From NCBI GenBank assembly GCA_903916255.1, contig CAIWVW010000132.1, positions 1 to 64,000 of the forward strand: DNA of 64,000 nucleotides, in the 5' to 3' direction. Shown piece by piece: positions 41,368-53,595 of this stretch. Source of the DNA: an uncultured Bacteroidota bacterium (GTDB lineage: Bacteria; Bacteroidota; Bacteroidia; JABEUT01). Both the position numbers and the translations under genes were made by a program. The notes under the pieces were generated by a model. That model was not told the origin of the DNA. It ran no database searches and saw nothing but the letters and a program-made list of their open reading frames with translations. How positions within the stretch are numbered: position 1 is the stretch's first letter; each line of letters starts with the position of its first letter.

Positions 41368-42225
41368 CTATTCTACAATAATACGTTGTATGGTAGACTG
41401 ACCATTGGCAATAAGTTGAATAAGATAAATACCCGGATTTGTCGCTGCAGGAAGCATTATGTTTTGAGTATGGTTGCCTTCGTTTACCATGTTGTTGGCT
41501 AAGGTTGAAATCTTTCTGCCATCCATGCTGAACATATTTAATTCTACGTTTGCGGCTTCTTTCAGGCTATAGGAGACATTTACCTGTTGTTTGGCCGGAT
41601 TTGGGAATATTGAAAAGGTAGTCGCTTCATTCGATATGTCGGCAATAGCATCGGTAGCGTTTTCCTGAACGGTAAGTGTTGCAGGGAAAACCCAGGTATT
41701 TGCAGAGGTAGAATTTCCGTTTCCGCAGTTAAAACAACCATAAAAGGTTACACTGCCAGTTCCGAGGGCAGGAGCCTTCCAATTAAATGTCCAAACGAGG
41801 GAATCTGTTCCCTGATAACCATTTTGGGTTTGTTCAATATACTGAAGGCCGGCATATGTTGTTATTTGAGTAGTTGTAGCATTGGTAACTATAAGTGTAC
41901 CTAACTTACCGCCGGCAGGTGTTTGTGGAGATATTTCAAACCCGAAAGAGGTAAATCCGGTGTAAACTGCTTTAGCTGTAAGCGTATAGGTTGAATCAGC
42001 TTTATACCCTGTGGGCGGAATATTTGAGGTTATCCAAGGCTTTGCACTTTGAAGCGCATGGGTGCTATGGCAACCGCCTATGGCGCAGGAAGCCCCATCG
42101 AATGGGGAATTTGTGGCTCCGGCAGGCGGACCATAATAATAGGCTTTACTATTGTGAATGCCTGTAAAATAAAGTAGTCCGCCGACAATTAGTGTCATGG
42201 AAACAAGGGCTATTTTTTTCTTCAT
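41368..42225 (-). CDS. Choice-of-anchor V-like domain protein with T9SS type A C-terminal domain
   Basis: NSPFDGASCAIGGCHSTHALQ; C-terminal FPNPAKQQVNVSYSLKEAANVELNMFSMDGRKI..GIYLIQLIANGQSTIQRIIVE. Confidence 0.8.
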   Translation of the reverse strand: MKKKIALVSMTLIVGGLLYFTGIHNSKAYYYGPPAGATNSPFDGASCAIGGCHSTHALQSAKPWITSNIPPTGYKADSTYTLTAKAVYTGFTSFGFEISPQTPAGGKLGTLIVTNATTTQITTYAGLQYIEQTQNGYQGTDSLVWTFNWKAPALGTGSVTFYGCFNCGNGNSTSANTWVFPATLTVQENATDAIADISNEATTFSIFPNPAKQQVNVSYSLKEAANVELNMFSMDGRKISTLANNMVNEGNHTQNIMLPAATNPGIYLIQLIANGQSTIQRIIVE

Positions 42226-42437
42226 CTCTTAGGGGAGTTTTTTTGTTAGGCGGCAAAACTATTTTAATGCATTTATAAAGATGCTGATATTCGTCATTTT
42301 TGAGTTTTTCCTTTTTTTAGGCATTTCTTATTCAGACCCTCATTTTGTGGTTTCATTTCTCTTAGATGAATAAAAAAATAAAAAGGTTGTGTGTAAGGAA
42401 AAAATAGTTGACACTATTTACAATTTTCCGGAAAAAT

Positions 42438-43322
42438 CTATTCCTTTATCACACGCTGAACAGAACTTTCGCCGTCAGCAATAACCTGAATAAAATACAT
42501 TCCCGGATTAATGGATGCAGGCAGTTTTATGGTTTGCGTATTATTTCCTTCGCAAGCAATATTATTGCAAAGATTTGCTATTTCCCGGCCATCGCATGAA
42601 TACAGATTTACCTCTATATTGCCTGATTGCTTCAGGTTATAAGAAATAGCAATTTGCTCTTTTGCCGGATTTGGAAATATTGTGAAGGCGGTGCTTTGGT
42701 TCTTTACATTTTTTATTCCTGCAGGATATTGCTGATAAACGGTGAGTGTTGCAGGATAAATAATGCCCGATGAAGCGCTTGTTCCGCTGCCGCAATTAAA
42801 GCAACCATAAAAAGTTACCGAATCCGTTTGCCCCGAAGGTGCTTTCCATTGGAAAACCCAAACTAAAGAATCATGCCCTTGGTATCCGTTAATGGTTTGT
42901 TCAATGTATTGCAAAGAACCGCTGGTAGTAATCGAGGTGGTGGTTGGATTAGTTGCAATCAATGTTCCCATAGGCGCACCGGAAACCGTTTGTGGAGATA
43001 TTTCAAATCCGAAGGAAGTGTGGCCTTCATAAACCGCTTTGGCAATTATTGTGTAAACAGAATCGGGCAAATACCCTGTACCCGGCACCCAGGAAGTAAT
43101 CCATGGTTTTTTTGCTTGTAAATTGTACGTGCTGTGGCAACCACTGGCGGCACACGATTTACCATCGAAAGGGGAATTGGTATATCCGGCAGGAGCGCCA
43201 TAATCATGGGCTTTGCCGGTGTGCATACCTGTAAAATAAAGTGAAGCGGAAACAATAACAAACATTAAAATAAGTGCTGCTTTCTTTTTCATAAAATGGA
43301 ATACTGTTTTTTTAAGGCGCAA
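42438..43322 (-). CDS. Choice-of-anchor V-like domain protein with T9SS type A C-terminal domain (tandem paralogue)
   Basis: NSPFDGKSCAASGCHSTYNLQ; FPNPAKEQIAISYNLKQ..GMYFIQVIADGESSVQRVIKE; same layout as 41368-42225. Confidence 0.8.
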   Translation of the reverse strand: MRLKKTVFHFMKKKAALILMFVIVSASLYFTGMHTGKAHDYGAPAGYTNSPFDGKSCAASGCHSTYNLQAKKPWITSWVPGTGYLPDSVYTIIAKAVYEGHTSFGFEISPQTVSGAPMGTLIATNPTTTSITTSGSLQYIEQTINGYQGHDSLVWVFQWKAPSGQTDSVTFYGCFNCGSGTSASSGIIYPATLTVYQQYPAGIKNVKNQSTAFTIFPNPAKEQIAISYNLKQSGNIEVNLYSCDGREIANLCNNIACEGNNTQTIKLPASINPGMYFIQVIADGESSVQRVIKE

Positions 43323-43457
43323 AACTATCTTTCATTTTCAGCCAAACAGGCAATTAAAGCCTATTAAGGCTAAACTTAACAGAAACATAATATTAGCCTT
43401 CTACTTCCAGTGAAAATAAAAGCCCCTCCCCTACTACTTTCCATCCAAAATATAAAT

Positions 43458-44070: not shown

Positions 44071-44340
44071 CTAATAAACTTCGTCGTGAGTTCCAATATC
44101 CACAAATACGGCTTTTTGCGGTTTTTCTTTGGTAAAATAAAAAACTACACGCGAATCATATCCAAACGAAAAACTCCACAAGTCTTTTAAATTACCGGAT
44201 AATTTATGGGTCTTTAGTTGCGGTTGAAAAGGGTTTGCAACAAATACTTCAACTGTTTTCCAAAAAATATCTTCGGATGCCGAACCCTTTACCCTTTTGC
44301 GAAATGCTTTTTTGAAAGAACTGCTAAATGAAATTTCCAC
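44071..44340 (-). CDS. RelE/YafQ-type toxin
   Basis: KAFRKRVKGSASEDIFWKTVEVFVANPFQPQLKTHKLSGNLKDLWSFSFGYDSRVVFYF. Confidence 0.82.
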   Translation of the reverse strand: MEISFSSSFKKAFRKRVKGSASEDIFWKTVEVFVANPFQPQLKTHKLSGNLKDLWSFSFGYDSRVVFYFTKEKPQKAVFVDIGTHDEVY

Positions 44341-44555
44341 TACAGCATCTTTTTAAGTTCCTTAACAGAAGCGGAAAATTTTAGCTTGCCAGATGCTTGC
44401 TCTTTCAGAGAGGCCTTGTAGTTCGTCGCCATTTCTTCTCTCCTGGCATCAGATATGTTGTGCTCCAAAAGGGTTTTTAATTCCTCTTTAAACTCCAATG
44501 GCAAATTATAGATGCTTTCTACTATGTTATTGAAATTATTTTGATTCGCTTTCAT
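44340..44555 (-). CDS. Antitoxin of RelE-type module
   Basis: Small ORF overlapping toxin by 1 nt; start MKANQNN at 44555 supported by -7 box at 44569-44576. Confidence 0.75.
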   Translation of the reverse strand: MKANQNNFNNIVESIYNLPLEFKEELKTLLEHNISDARREEMATNYKASLKEQASGKLKFSASVKELKKML

Positions 44556-44656
44556 ACTCCTTTTTTTACAAAGATAGTTATAATTTAAATTCCTCTTAGT
44601 TATGCAATTTTTGCACCCCCTGCCCTCCCCCACTCCGTTCCATCCAAAATAAAAAT

Positions 44657-45380: not shown

Positions 45381-47246
45381 ATGTTCAAAGAATATGATGT
45401 AATAGTAGTTGGTGCCGGCCACGCAGGATGCGAGGCTGCGGCTGCTGCTGCTAACTTGGGTTCGTCGGTGTTGCTGATTACTATGGACATGACGAAGATT
45501 GCGCAGATGTCCTGCAACCCTGCTATGGGCGGCATTGCCAAAGGACAGATAGTGCGCGAGATTGATGCTTTGGGTGGATATTCCGGAATAGTAAGCGATA
45601 AAACGGCCATACAATTCCGAATGCTGAACCGTTCCAAAGGCCCTGCTATGTGGAGCCCGCGTACACAAAACGACCGGGCATTATTTACACTCGAGTGGAG
45701 AAAATTATTGGAAAACACACCTAACCTGGATTTTTTCCAGGATATGGTAAAAGATATAATCGTCAAGAATGATAAGGTCTGCGGCGTTGTCACCGGGCTT
45801 GGCATGGAAATAAAATGCAAGTCTGTTGTACTTACCAACGGCACTTTTTTAAACGGCATTATTCACATTGGTGAAAAGCAATTTGGCGGCGGCAGGGCAG
45901 GGGAGAGGGCTGCAACCGGAATCACGGAAAAGCTTTTGCAGCTTGGCTTCCAAAGCGGACGCATGAAAACAGGAACTCCTCCGCGTATTGACGGGCGTTC
46001 GATTGATTACTCGAAGCTCGAGGAGCAAAAGGGTGATGAAAATCCGGAGAAGTTTTCCTATTTGCAAGAAATAAAACCGTTGCAAAAGCAACGCAGTTGT
46101 TACATGGCTTACACAAGTGATAAAGTCCATGAGATATTAAAAACCGGATTTGAAAAGTCTCCGATGTTCGCCGGAAGGATTCAGGGGGTAGGGCCGAGGT
46201 ATTGTCCTTCGATAGAAGACAAAATAAATCGCTTCGCCGATAAAGAGCGCCACCAACTTTTTGTGGAGCCTGAAGGGTGGGATACGGTCGAAGTTTACCT
46301 CAACGGGTTCTCAACATCCCTTCCTGAAGACGTGCAAGATGCCGCTTTGAAGTCAATTATTGGATTAGAGCGCGTTAAAATGTTCCGGCCGGGGTACGCT
46401 ATAGAATATGATTACTTCCCTCCCGATCAGCTCTCTAATACGCTGGAAACGCGTCGTGTTTCAAATCTCTATTTTGCAGGTCAAATTAACGGTACAACAG
46501 GCTATGAAGAAGCTGCTTGTCAGGGAATTATGGCTGGTATTAATGCCCATTTAAAGGTCAATAATAAGCCACCTTTTGTACTTTCCCGCTCACAAGCATA
46601 CATCGGAGTGCTAATTGATGACCTCATCACAAAAGGTACCGAGGAGCCTTATCGTATGTTTACCTCGAGGGCAGAATTCCGGATTTTGCTCCGCCAGGAT
46701 AATGCCGATATTCGTTTAACTCCTATGAGTCACGAATTAGGTTTAGCATCTAAAGAACGATTTGACCGGGTAAATGAAAAGATAAAAAAGAGCAAAGAGC
46801 TTACCAAATATTTCAAAGAAATTACCGTAACTCCTGAAGAGGTAAATCCTTATTTAACCGGAATCGGTTCTATGGAAATAGACCAAAAAGTGAAGGCATT
46901 TTCTATTTTAGCAAGGCCTGATGTTTCCATAAATGGATTGGCAACTGCTTCTGAAAACATAAAATCTCATCTCGAATCATACGATTTTGAGACTATAGAG
47001 GAAGCCGAAATTCAAATGAAATATACAGGCTATATTATCAAGGAGCAAGAGACCGCCGATAAAGCTTTACGCCTCGAGGATTTAATTCTGCATGATAATT
47101 TCGACTACCATAAACTGAAATCTCTATCTATAGAGGCAAGGGAAAAACTTTCTAAACACCGTCCTAAAACATTGGGACAGGCATCACGGATTAGTGGGGT
47201 TAATCCTTCGGATATTTCTATTTTAATGGTACATATCGGCAGGTAG
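45381..47246 (+). CDS. mnmG: tRNA uridine-5-carboxymethylaminomethyl synthesis enzyme MnmG (GidA)
   Basis: [83 protein letters not shown]. Confidence 0.97.
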
Positions 47247-47298: not shown

Positions 47299-47314
47299 TG
47301 TTTCACGTGGAACA
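47299..47314. promoter_or_regulatory. parS: parS-type site TGTTTCACGTGGAACA
   Basis: Reverse complement equals TGTTCCACGTGAAACA, the ParB consensus site. Confidence 0.88.
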
Positions 47315-47327
47315 TAAATAAAATACT

Positions 47328-47594
47328 ATGCAAGAAATAATAAATATGCTCGAACTAATCATAGCTGATACAGCCAATAGGGAGCAGTTGGTCAGGGATT
47401 TCCAAAAAAGAATAGGAAACAATCTGTTCATAGCCCCGGAAGCTGCCACCAACATATTTGACGACTTAGCCTATACTATGGAGAACTATGAACCGGATGA
47501 AGAAGTAAGGGAAGAGGATGCTTCTCTATATGGGGATGATAGGCTGATTAAAGAGATTGAGAGGGCTTTAAGTAAATTAAAGAAGGCGAAATAG
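47328..47594 (+). CDS. Hypothetical small acidic protein
   Basis: 88-aa ORF downstream of mnmG, between parS-type sites 1 and 2. Confidence 0.65.
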   Translation: MQEIINMLELIIADTANREQLVRDFQKRIGNNLFIAPEAATNIFDDLAYTMENYEPDEEVREEDASLYGDDRLIKEIERALSKLKKAK

Positions 47595-47600
47595 TTTGAT

Positions 47601-47616
47601 TGTTCCACGTGGAACA
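47601..47616. promoter_or_regulatory. parS: parS-type site TGTTCCACGTGGAACA (perfect palindrome)
   Basis: Perfect 16-bp palindrome around CACGTG. Confidence 0.85.
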
Positions 47617-47634
47617 ATTTCAGTTAATACCTCT

Positions 47635-47748
47635 CGTAATTGCGAGGCTCCGCGAAGCAATCCCTTTGATTTATGGATTGTTTGATAAGAACATAGTGAT
47701 AATAATATTTATATAACAGAGATTGCTTCGCGGAGCCTCGCAATGACG
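47635..47748. repeat. Dispersed inverted repeat (family A)
   Basis: CGTAATTGCGAGGCTCCGCGAAGCAATC 47635-47662 / GATTGCTTCGCGGAGCCTCGCAATGACG 47721-47748, 27/28 complementary. Confidence 0.92.
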
Positions 47749-47769
47749 AAACGCACTGCAAAATGCACA

Positions 47770-47785
47770 TGTTCCACGTGAAACA
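47770..47785. promoter_or_regulatory. parS: parS-type site TGTTCCACGTGAAACA
   Basis: Exact match to the ParB consensus site. Confidence 0.9.
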
Positions 47786-47786
47786 A

Positions 47787-48746
47787 TTATCCTTTTAAGG
47801 CATGTTCAACCCAGGCTTTACCCCAATTTGCCTTCTCTTCATCGGACCATAATTCAGGGTAAAAGATAATTCGTTGGAAGCGGGGAGGAAGAAATTTTTG
47901 CCAATTAGTGCCACCTGTTGCGGCAATAATATCTGGGTCTCCTTGCAGGTAACGCACGGCTGATTTATAATGTTGCAAGCACCAGTTCACATTTATATTA
48001 GAATCAAGGTCGCGCATTAATTGCATTAATTCAGGGTTCTTCTTATCGACTTCTGGCAACTCATTATATCGTGCATATACATTTCCTTTGGCACACTTTT
48101 CAGCAAGGACCAAGAATTGCTCACTATACTTTTCTTCAAACTGAATTAAGGTTAGCGTCTTTCTTCCGGTCGCTAACTCGGTTGCTCCGGTCTTCCAATA
48201 TATGTGCTGGAACATCTCCTTTATGGATAGATTCTTCACATCCGGATTCTTGGCCGCATAGTCCTTTTGAATCAGGTTTACCAAGTTAGTGGAGTATAAT
48301 TCTATCATCCTATATTGAGCCGATTGGAATCCGCTGGCAGGTAATAGGGCCATCCTGAACTTCAGGAATTGCTCCTTTTCCATACCATCTATCATAATAC
48401 CGTAGGTAGTATTTAGCCCATCAAAATAATGGACAATACGCTTTAACTTTTGGATTAAGTAATCTACCTTAATACCCTTTTTATCAGCTATTTGTTCATA
48501 TTCATGTATGCACAGCTTGAAGAAAAGCTCCGTTATCTGATGATACATGATGAAAATCTTCTCATCCGGGAAGCTTGTCCGCGGATTTTGGAGCGAGAGT
48601 AGGGTATCAGTATGCACATAATCCCAATACTTGAGGTAATCCATATACTGCAATCCCTCCAAATAAGCATTCATATCCTGGCCCATCGCCTGATACTTTT
48701 CGTTTAGCTGATCAAGTCGTTTAGCTATTTCGGGTGTAATTTCCAT
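47787..48746 (-). CDS. kynA: Tryptophan 2,3-dioxygenase
   Basis: MYHQITELFFKLCIHEYEQI; LLPASGFQSAQYRMIELYSTN. Confidence 0.88.
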   Translation of the reverse strand: MEITPEIAKRLDQLNEKYQAMGQDMNAYLEGLQYMDYLKYWDYVHTDTLLSLQNPRTSFPDEKIFIMYHQITELFFKLCIHEYEQIADKKGIKVDYLIQKLKRIVHYFDGLNTTYGIMIDGMEKEQFLKFRMALLPASGFQSAQYRMIELYSTNLVNLIQKDYAAKNPDVKNLSIKEMFQHIYWKTGATELATGRKTLTLIQFEEKYSEQFLVLAEKCAKGNVYARYNELPEVDKKNPELMQLMRDLDSNINVNWCLQHYKSAVRYLQGDPDIIAATGGTNWQKFLPPRFQRIIFYPELWSDEEKANWGKAWVEHALKG

Positions 48747-51045: not shown

Positions 51046-52620
51046 TCACGGCGCCTCCACCGCATCATATTTCATTTCCACATCATCACGATACGTAATG
51101 GTTAGAAATAGCGCGCCATCCGGATTATAGTATTTCCATTTGTCTTCCATTAGTCCTAACGTATATTGCCCTTCCAGCTCTTTTTTACCATTTTCATAAT
51201 ACCAGGTATGTATTCCATCGGGCCTTCCCTGACTATATTTTCCGGTATAACGAATATGTCCGTTACTGTTGTAATATTCGGTCATAATGCTATCTTCCAA
51301 ATCGCCGGAATATTTAATAATGCTCTTATAATTCCCCAATTGGTAAACCCATGTACCTTCTTTTAACCCATCAACATACTGCCCTCTGGTAATCACCAAT
51401 CCTGAATCATCATATTCTGCAAAATCCCCATCTTCCTGTCCCTTGGTATAATTGCTTTCACGGCGCAATTTACCATCCTCAAAGTACCATAACCATTTCC
51501 CGGCTTGTTTTCCTTTTGCATCATATTTTCCTACTTCAAATTTCTTCCCATCGCGGAAAAAGTATTTCCAATCACCTACCTTAACCCCATTTACATATTT
51601 TCCTTCAGCTTGTGGTTGTCCGTTATCATAAAACTCTTTCCAGTCGCCTTCCTGCTGGTCAGCTTCATTAATTGGACCCGATGCAACTACCCTTCCGCTA
51701 TCATACACATCCGCTGTTTTTGGCTTACCATTCTCATCATATTTCCGGTGCATCCCAAATGGCACATTATCTTTATACGGACCCGATGATTCAACTTGTC
51801 CATTGGAATAATAGGTAGTCTTAATATCCAGTTTAGCCAGTTCAGGGGCATTTTGCTGTAGCACATCATTAATGTACTTCTCAACGGTAACCAATTCCCC
51901 TTTTTCATCATAGGTTTTAAAGTAACCATCGCGTTTGTCATCTACATAATTACCTTCCCATTTCACATGTAATATTCCTTTATCAGCATCTTTTTTATAA
52001 ATACTATCCGGGAAGAATGTCTGCCATAAACCTTCTTTATGCCCTTCTGTATTTACCTGGTTTATTTTGGTTATTTTCTTTATAAATCCTCCTTTGTACG
52101 TAATTATACTCGTTATTAAAGAATCCTTATTAAACTGCAAAGATCGTCCTTCAGCAAGGCCTTCTTTATAATTAATTATCTGGTGCAATTTGCCTTTATC
52201 ATAATAATAGGCATCACCCATCAACGTATCATTCCTGTAATATTCTTTGGAAGCCATTGTACCTTTTGAACTATCCTTTAATTGCGGCTTAAACGTATAT
52301 TTATATCCTGTTTTTTTTCCTTCTTTATAGGTATAAATTAAATATAATAATCCCTTTTCATTATAAAATTTCCACAGGCTGTCCAGTTTAAAATCTTTTC
52401 GGTTTCCTTCCGATTTCAGTTTACCGTTTTCATAATAATTTTTCCAGTAACCATCCGGCTTACCATCTTTAATTATACCTTCACTCGATACTTTTCCATT
52501 TGGATAAAGCAGTTTATTATAACCATCTTTAGTTTCCTGAGCAATGGATAGCATAGGCAAATAAATTGCCAATACAAACAATATGCTTATTTTTAAAACG
52601 CTGTTTTTTATTAATCTCAT
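51046..52620 (-). CDS. YwqK/MORN_2-like repeat protein, secreted
   Basis: Many repeats YYENGKLKSEGN, FYDNGQPQAEGKYVNGVKVGDWKYFF, YYENGKKELEGQYTLGLMEDKWKYY. Confidence 0.88.
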   Translation of the reverse strand: MRLIKNSVLKISILFVLAIYLPMLSIAQETKDGYNKLLYPNGKVSSEGIIKDGKPDGYWKNYYENGKLKSEGNRKDFKLDSLWKFYNEKGLLYLIYTYKEGKKTGYKYTFKPQLKDSSKGTMASKEYYRNDTLMGDAYYYDKGKLHQIINYKEGLAEGRSLQFNKDSLITSIITYKGGFIKKITKINQVNTEGHKEGLWQTFFPDSIYKKDADKGILHVKWEGNYVDDKRDGYFKTYDEKGELVTVEKYINDVLQQNAPELAKLDIKTTYYSNGQVESSGPYKDNVPFGMHRKYDENGKPKTADVYDSGRVVASGPINEADQQEGDWKEFYDNGQPQAEGKYVNGVKVGDWKYFFRDGKKFEVGKYDAKGKQAGKWLWYFEDGKLRRESNYTKGQEDGDFAEYDDSGLVITRGQYVDGLKEGTWVYQLGNYKSIIKYSGDLEDSIMTEYYNSNGHIRYTGKYSQGRPDGIHTWYYENGKKELEGQYTLGLMEDKWKYYNPDGALFLTITYRDDVEMKYDAVEAP

Positions 52621-52950
52621 TACCTCTTGACTCTTTTAAACCTTTAAAGTTTACAGAAACAAAAATACGCATCTTTTAATTAACCCCATTTTCAGAACCT
52701 TATACATACTATTAAATATAGATTTTATTTTAAAGTTTTATGTTCTTGTTGTATAGGTATGTTAATACGTTCATAAATACCTTCATTTTTATTTGGAATT
52801 GGAAAATGTGTTTCGCCGTGAACATAATATACAAAATAACTCACCCATAATACATTGATTATAAGTTGTAAGATACTTAATTAACACACTGTTCATATAG
52901 AATTAACAATTCAATTTGTTGGTAAGTAATTGCATTTTTCAGGAGGTAAA

Positions 52951-53028
52951 ATGTTAATAGGTAACTCATTTAAAAGGATAACTAAAAACGTGTTTAACAA
53001 AAATCTTGTTAAGGGGAGTAGGATATGA
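52951..53028 (+). CDS. Candidate 25-aa small ORF with strong Shine-Dalgarno (MLIGNSFKRITKNVFNKNLVKGSRI)
   Basis: AGGAGGT at 52941-52947, 3 nt before ATG; basic peptide. Confidence 0.25.
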   Translation: MLIGNSFKRITKNVFNKNLVKGSRI

Positions 53029-53166
53029 ACAATTTGAAACCGGGCAAATGAAAGTACTTAACATTTTAGTAACGCTTATTAACAATGAAAGTTCATAAAG
53101 TTTGGAAAGTAGAAACTTTATAAAGTGGAAACTCCTAACTTTACAAACTCTTAGAACAAATAAAAA

Positions 53167-53595
53167 ATGAAAATAGCCATAGGCAGCGACCATGCAGGGT
53201 TTCAACTGAAAGAAACATTGCGGACATATTTGCATAATAAAGGATTTGATGTAAAGGATTTCGGAACTTTTTCCGAAGAACGGGCCGATTACCCTGATTT
53301 TGCACATCCGGTTGCCTCGGCTGTGGAACATAATGAAGTGGATATGGGTGTGCTGGTTTGCGGCAGCGGCAACGGCGTTAATATGTCTGCTAATCGTCAC
53401 CATGGGGTACGTTCAGCTTTATGCTGGACCGAAGAAATTGCCAAACTGGCCCGTCAGCATAACGATGCTAATATAATAGCTTTACCGGCCCGTTTTATAA
53501 GTATTGAAGAAGCCGAAAAATGTGTGGATGCTTTCTTTTCTACTTCATTTGAGGGAGGAAGACATACCGACAGAGTTAAAAAAATAGAAGGATAA
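53167..53595 (+). CDS. rpiB: Ribose-5-phosphate isomerase B
   Basis: MKIAIGSDHAGFQLKE, VCGSGNGVNMSANRHHGVRSALCW. Confidence 0.95.
   Translation: MKIAIGSDHAGFQLKETLRTYLHNKGFDVKDFGTFSEERADYPDFAHPVASAVEHNEVDMGVLVCGSGNGVNMSANRHHGVRSALCWTEEIAKLARQHNDANIIALPARFISIEEAEKCVDAFFSTSFEGGRHTDRVKKIEG

Follow-up and report, generated by a model that had tools for sequence, protein, structure and literature searches.

A cluster of parS sites beside mnmG and the probable chromosomal origin domain of an uncultured Bacteroidota bacterium

Three 16-bp sites located next to the gene mnmG in the genome of an uncultured Bacteroidota bacterium very probably constitute the chromosomal parS centromere of a ParABS system and form a cluster in the origin domain, with the probable oriC some 5 kb away. 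The sites lie in a window of 64,000 nucleotides (the whole stretch of DNA that was analysed) and are unique to this place in the genome, which encodes a ParB protein of the parS type. Across the class Bacteroidia parS is anchored at mnmG, and in relatives with complete genomes it coincides with the origin defined by GC skew. In the mechanism that we propose, the single ParB, which is encoded together with ParA elsewhere, would load onto the three parS sites and would then spread across the mnmG region, and ParA (and SMC, if present) would separate the newly copied origin regions. The parS cluster would occupy an origin domain whose oriC is predicted to lie upstream of rpiB.

The parS sites, their neighbours and the partner proteins

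The features of the parS region are as follows (positions are those of the window).

45381..47246, plus strand, mnmG/gidA (PF01134, 8e-166), the anchor gene of parS across the class
47299..47314, minus strand, parS site 1, TGTTCCACGTGAAACA on the minus strand, exact match
47328..47594, plus strand, 88-aa ORF in the interval between sites 1 and 2, candidate lineage-specific gene, full-length in the sister species G010
47601..47616, unstranded, parS site 2, fully palindromic TGTTCCACGTGGAACA, exact match
47634..47749, unstranded, dispersed palindromic REP-like repeat (inverted repeat with 49-nt arms) between sites 2 and 3
47770..47785, plus strand, parS site 3, TGTTCCACGTGAAACA, exact match
47787..48746, minus strand, tryptophan 2,3-dioxygenase (PF03301, 1.5e-24), right-hand neighbour of the cluster

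A preliminary description of this DNA had reported three parS-type sites within 487 bp, directly downstream of mnmG, and all of these particulars were reproduced: the 16-mers TGTTYCACGTGRAACA are present at 47299, 47601 and 47770 with 0 mismatches at each, and site 1 starts 52 bp past the mnmG stop codon. When up to 2 mismatches were allowed, the window still yielded just these three sites, and in dinucleotide shuffles the mean number was 0.08 and three were never obtained. All three sites match the 16-bp palindrome TGTTNCACGTGAAACA within a few mismatches. The division into two canonical sites and a symmetric third one also held, as sites 1 and 3 carry the canonical sequence without a mismatch and each is the exact reverse complement of the other (18 bp counting flanks), and site 2, the symmetric variant, is a perfect palindrome. 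A single base separates the end of site 3 (47785) from the stop codon of the tryptophan dioxygenase gene, which lies on the opposite strand. A search of the whole genome (3.74 Mb in 149 contigs) revealed no copy of TGTTYCACGTGRAACA beyond the three in the window; there is no random scatter of the site, and the copies are few and clustered, as is characteristic of chromosomal ParABS systems.

The window was said to be devoid of parA and parB, and for parB this is borne out by the location of the only ParB match in the whole genome, which is on contig C7 (locus L016, 9659-10558) and encodes a protein of 299 aa. This protein contains the ParB_N, HTH_ParB and ParB_C domains (TIGR00180, 4e-51) as well as the GERR motif. 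The gene lies directly downstream of parA, a gene for a 270-aa ParA-type ATPase that ends about 80 bp before parB. As one canonical ParB is encoded beside parA, the genome has a complete ParABS system, although parAB, being on C7, is on a contig other than that of parS. Two residue positions are known to set the specificity for parS versus the Noc site (PMC7383237), and in an alignment with solved ParB and Noc proteins the ParB studied here has the equivalents of R173 and G201, which are of the parS type and not the Noc type. A Noc-binding site (NBS; consensus TATTTCCCGGGAAATA, Noc residues Q173/R201) was also considered as an identity for these sequences and rejected, since the core here is CACGTG and the two specificity positions of the ParB are occupied by R and G.

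The 88-aa ORF between sites 1 and 2 is full-length in G010, with 83% identity, and its third codon positions diverge most. It is probably a real lineage-specific gene, a reading that rests on this divergence, which is typical of a coding gene, and on the retention of its full length in the sister species. No Pfam family above the cutoff was matched by this ORF, it was not found beside mnmG in genus members other than G010, and when its relatives were sought in genome contigs a single one was detected, in the sister species. Upstream of mnmG, at a distance of about 0.7 kb, is a pair of small genes (44071-44633), one of which is YafQ-type toxin-like (PF15738, 2e-7), and its upstream partner has no Pfam match. 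The region 41368-43322 contains a tandem pair of similar secreted proteins with CxxCH motifs, the first of which carries a type IX secretion C-terminal sorting domain (PF18962), and these are followed by a cytochrome c gene at 43410.

Distribution of parS in the genus and class

Exact parS sites are present in seven of the 11 genomes of the genus (this genome included), with 1-3 sites in each, and mnmG adjoins parS in all six genus relatives that have an exact site. Tryptophan dioxygenase is close to parS in several of these relatives, being found on its far side in G004, G005, G006 and G010; the parS locus of G003 is cut by a contig end and that of G009 shows mnmG alone. In the sister species (G010, locus L005) sites 1 and 3 are exact and occupy the same place, so that the exact site beside the dioxygenase stop codon is retained, and the middle site is degenerate with 2 mismatches.

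Among 246 sampled Bacteroidia, 162 contain an exact parS, nearly all of them in 1-3 copies, compared with 2 genomes for a reversed control pattern; about one third of the sample has no exact site. In the site-bearing loci that were fetched from the class, mnmG is inside the 3-kb locus in 26 of 30. Coordinates of both were available for 30 genomes. In 28 of them a parS site and mnmG are no more than 2 kb apart, the site being found on one side of the gene or the other, and the distances in the remaining two are 2.2 kb and 21 kb; a further exception is G163, where parS is 27 kb from mnmG. Single-contig genomes without an exact site can have a 1-mismatch parS beside mnmG, as in G103 and G122. Family f8, which includes G137 and whose members are mostly without exact sites, may possibly have undergone a lineage shift of the parS site.

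Some unusual arrangements were also observed. In G040, which has 12 exact parS sites in its genome with at least one on contig C28, seven are present at a regular spacing of 98-99 bp on contig C24 (13202-13810), forming a tandem array of parS-bearing units. In G137, two copies of a 1-mismatch parS, CGTTCCACGTGGAACA, are found near rpiB (C1:2997305 and 2997714).

Position of the origin and a candidate oriC upstream of rpiB

The position of the origin was examined in four complete genomes (G219, G241, G243, G169; the signal in G243 being weak), with 20 stretches of 20 kb sampled from each, using the GC skew at third codon positions averaged over genes on both strands. At parS/mnmG the sign of the skew switches from negative to positive, clearly in G219, G169 and G241, weakly in G243. 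In a two-switch model the best origin interval is at or next to parS in G219, G169 and G241 (R2 0.59-0.84); in G243 other origin positions fit slightly better (R2 0.50 for parS vs 0.61 for the best), parS being acceptable. The positions of dnaA and parB fit the skew poorly, that of dnaA in all four genomes, and in G219 dnaA is close to the opposite, terminus-like switch. The distance between parS and dnaA, as a fraction of the chromosome, is 0.45 in G219, 0.40 in G241, 0.33 in G243 and 0.22 in G169, and that between parB and parS is 0.25-0.41 in the four genomes. Cumulative skew minima are 8-19 kb from parS in G219, G169 and G241. These results support the view that parS/mnmG, rather than dnaA or parAB, would mark the origin in Bacteroidia.

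None of the outcomes that the preliminary description had named as grounds for rejection occurred. The origin-proximal location put forward there is supported through the skew of relatives, at parS/mnmG in three complete genomes and weakly in a fourth, but it is not evident from the organism's own contig, C132 (107.7 kb), which has no clear GC-skew switch and a cumulative minimum at 98.6 kb. Because the assembly is in 149 contigs and C132 lacks a convincing switch, origin proximity in this genome is assigned by homology.

The region in which oriC is probably located contains the following features.

51046..52620, minus strand, gene for a MORN-repeat protein (PF07661, 3e-28), flanking the candidate oriC
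52621..53166, unstranded, candidate oriC, AT-rich gap that contains TTATYAACA-like boxes and is bounded by the divergently oriented MORN-repeat and rpiB genes
53076..53084, plus strand, exact TTATTAACA box inside the candidate oriC
53167..53595, plus strand, rpiB (PF02502, 6e-59), flanking the candidate oriC

Skew minima in relatives and the DnaA-box-like motif TTATYAACA point to this AT-rich gap as the probable oriC. It is 546 bp long and lies 4.8 kb from parS site 3, and its GC content, 27%, is the lowest for any stretch of that length on the contig. It contains one exact and four 1-mismatch TTATYAACA boxes, a modest excess (5 vs 1.5 by chance, P = 0.024). The sequence TTATCCACA was not found in the gap within 1 mismatch, and no cluster of the canonical DnaA boxes TTATCCACA and TTTTCCACA was detected near mnmG on C132.

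In relatives, finer sampling placed the cumulative skew minimum upstream of rpiB in G219 (at 1,861,949, where a MORN-repeat gene starts) and in G169 (at 2,547,347), at a distance of about 0.6 kb from rpiB in both; the minimum of G241 is 13.7 kb from rpiB. A MORN-repeat homologue adjoins rpiB in G219 and G241. Of the 72 genomes having both genes on one contig, 57 have rpiB no more than 25 kb from mnmG. Where the two genes are linked, the rpiB-upstream gap (rpiB starts located by tblastn) is nearly always AT-rich, but it is not so in G103 and G184, where rpiB and mnmG are 97-455 kb apart.

Motif discovery without a prior in the gaps upstream of rpiB returned TTATCAACA and TTATTAACA, which are one and two changes, respectively, from the E. 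coli DnaA box TTATCCACA. The density of TTATYAACA is 3.45 per kb vs a background of 0.036 per kb, where the same set of gaps had served for the discovery. In 18 held-out genomes 13 exact boxes were counted, where shuffles gave 1.5; 60 permuted motifs were also tried, and none equalled this number. The densest 500-bp window of TTATYAACA is the rpiB-upstream gap in G219 (over 200 kb) and in G169 (over 153 kb), both of which had been held out of discovery. We consider it reasonably probable that the origin domain of Bacteroidia has a conserved physical core, consisting of parS-mnmG and an AT-rich oriC upstream of rpiB with the lineage-typical DnaA box TTATYAACA, with dnaA and parAB dispersed elsewhere on the chromosome.

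Alternative readings and relation to known systems

The sites could be parS and yet not lie especially near oriC, which would instead be beside dnaA as in textbook bacteria. The lack of a clear skew switch on the organism's own contig and the presence of dnaA on a different contig, C30, are compatible with such an arrangement, but we judge it unlikely: parS and dnaA are separated by 0.22-0.45 of the chromosome in the four complete relatives, in all of which dnaA fits the skew poorly, oriC is often distant from dnaA in Bacteroidetes (PMC4755523), and it has been placed at mnmG in two Flavobacteriaceae (PMC11278836, PMC12843772).

That the CACGTG palindromes serve as operators of a local transcription factor for mnmG or tryptophan dioxygenase would agree with their presence in the 3' region of mnmG and beside the dioxygenase stop codon. 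However, the sites are located downstream of both flanking genes rather than upstream, in different families they are found 5' or 3' of mnmG at variable distance, and they match the ParB consensus in a genome that encodes a parS-type ParB, all of which renders this reading very improbable. An origin of the sites by chance or through an inserted element, to which the dispersed palindromic repeat between sites 2 and 3 might point, has a negligible likelihood. At 2 mismatches 0.08 sites are expected vs the three exact ones found, and the 23-mer core of the repeat (TTGCGAGGCTCCGCGAAGCAATC) recurs at 52 genomic positions when up to 3 mismatches are allowed, with some copies arranged as inverted pairs, as against three for parS; the repeat is separate from parS. 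Moreover, the retention of sites 1 and 3 in the sister species refutes this explanation. A parS centromere in the origin domain is hence the reading that we prefer.

The ParABS system itself is already known, and a distant dnaA in Bacteroidetes has been published. The class-wide anchoring of parS at mnmG and the candidate origin upstream of rpiB are additions that were not found in the open literature: a search of openly available papers gave none that connects rpiB to oriC in Bacteroidetes, nor, among the open papers listed, one that describes TTATCAACA as a Bacteroidetes DnaA box. For draft genomes of Bacteroidia, where dnaA misleads, parS/mnmG provides an easy landmark of the origin, and it thereby helps coverage-based estimates of growth rate and the orientation of genomes. 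The candidate oriC and the DnaA-box variant are testable, in a phylum whose replication initiation has had little study.

An origin-proximal parS is a general feature (PMC7333895), and clusters of such sites have served to locate origins where dnaA fails (PMC10197239). In that work on the Hi-C ori setting of gut bacteria, as here, the parS cluster is at the skew-defined ori and dnaA is not always there; unlike the present study, it dealt with a 12-species consortium with few Bacteroidetes, and its available part does not mention mnmG or rpiB. The origins predicted for Mariniflexile and Algorimicrobium (PMC11278836, PMC12843772) are likewise at mnmG by skew, and in Mariniflexile away from dnaA; these reports concern single genomes and, in their available portions, do not mention parS, whereas here the parS-mnmG link is observed across many families together with a candidate oriC upstream of rpiB. 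The closest known counterpart is the chromosomal ParABS of the Bacillus subtilis/Caulobacter type (TGTTTCACGTGAAACA), with which the present system shares the same 16-bp palindromic site in few copies and a tight cluster, a single ParB with the same domain make-up, an adjacent ParA and, in relatives, an origin-proximal location. It differs from that type in that parAB is away from parS and the origin (on another contig here, and at 0.25-0.41 of the chromosome in the four complete relatives), and in that C/G variants of the half-site (TGTTCC) are common.
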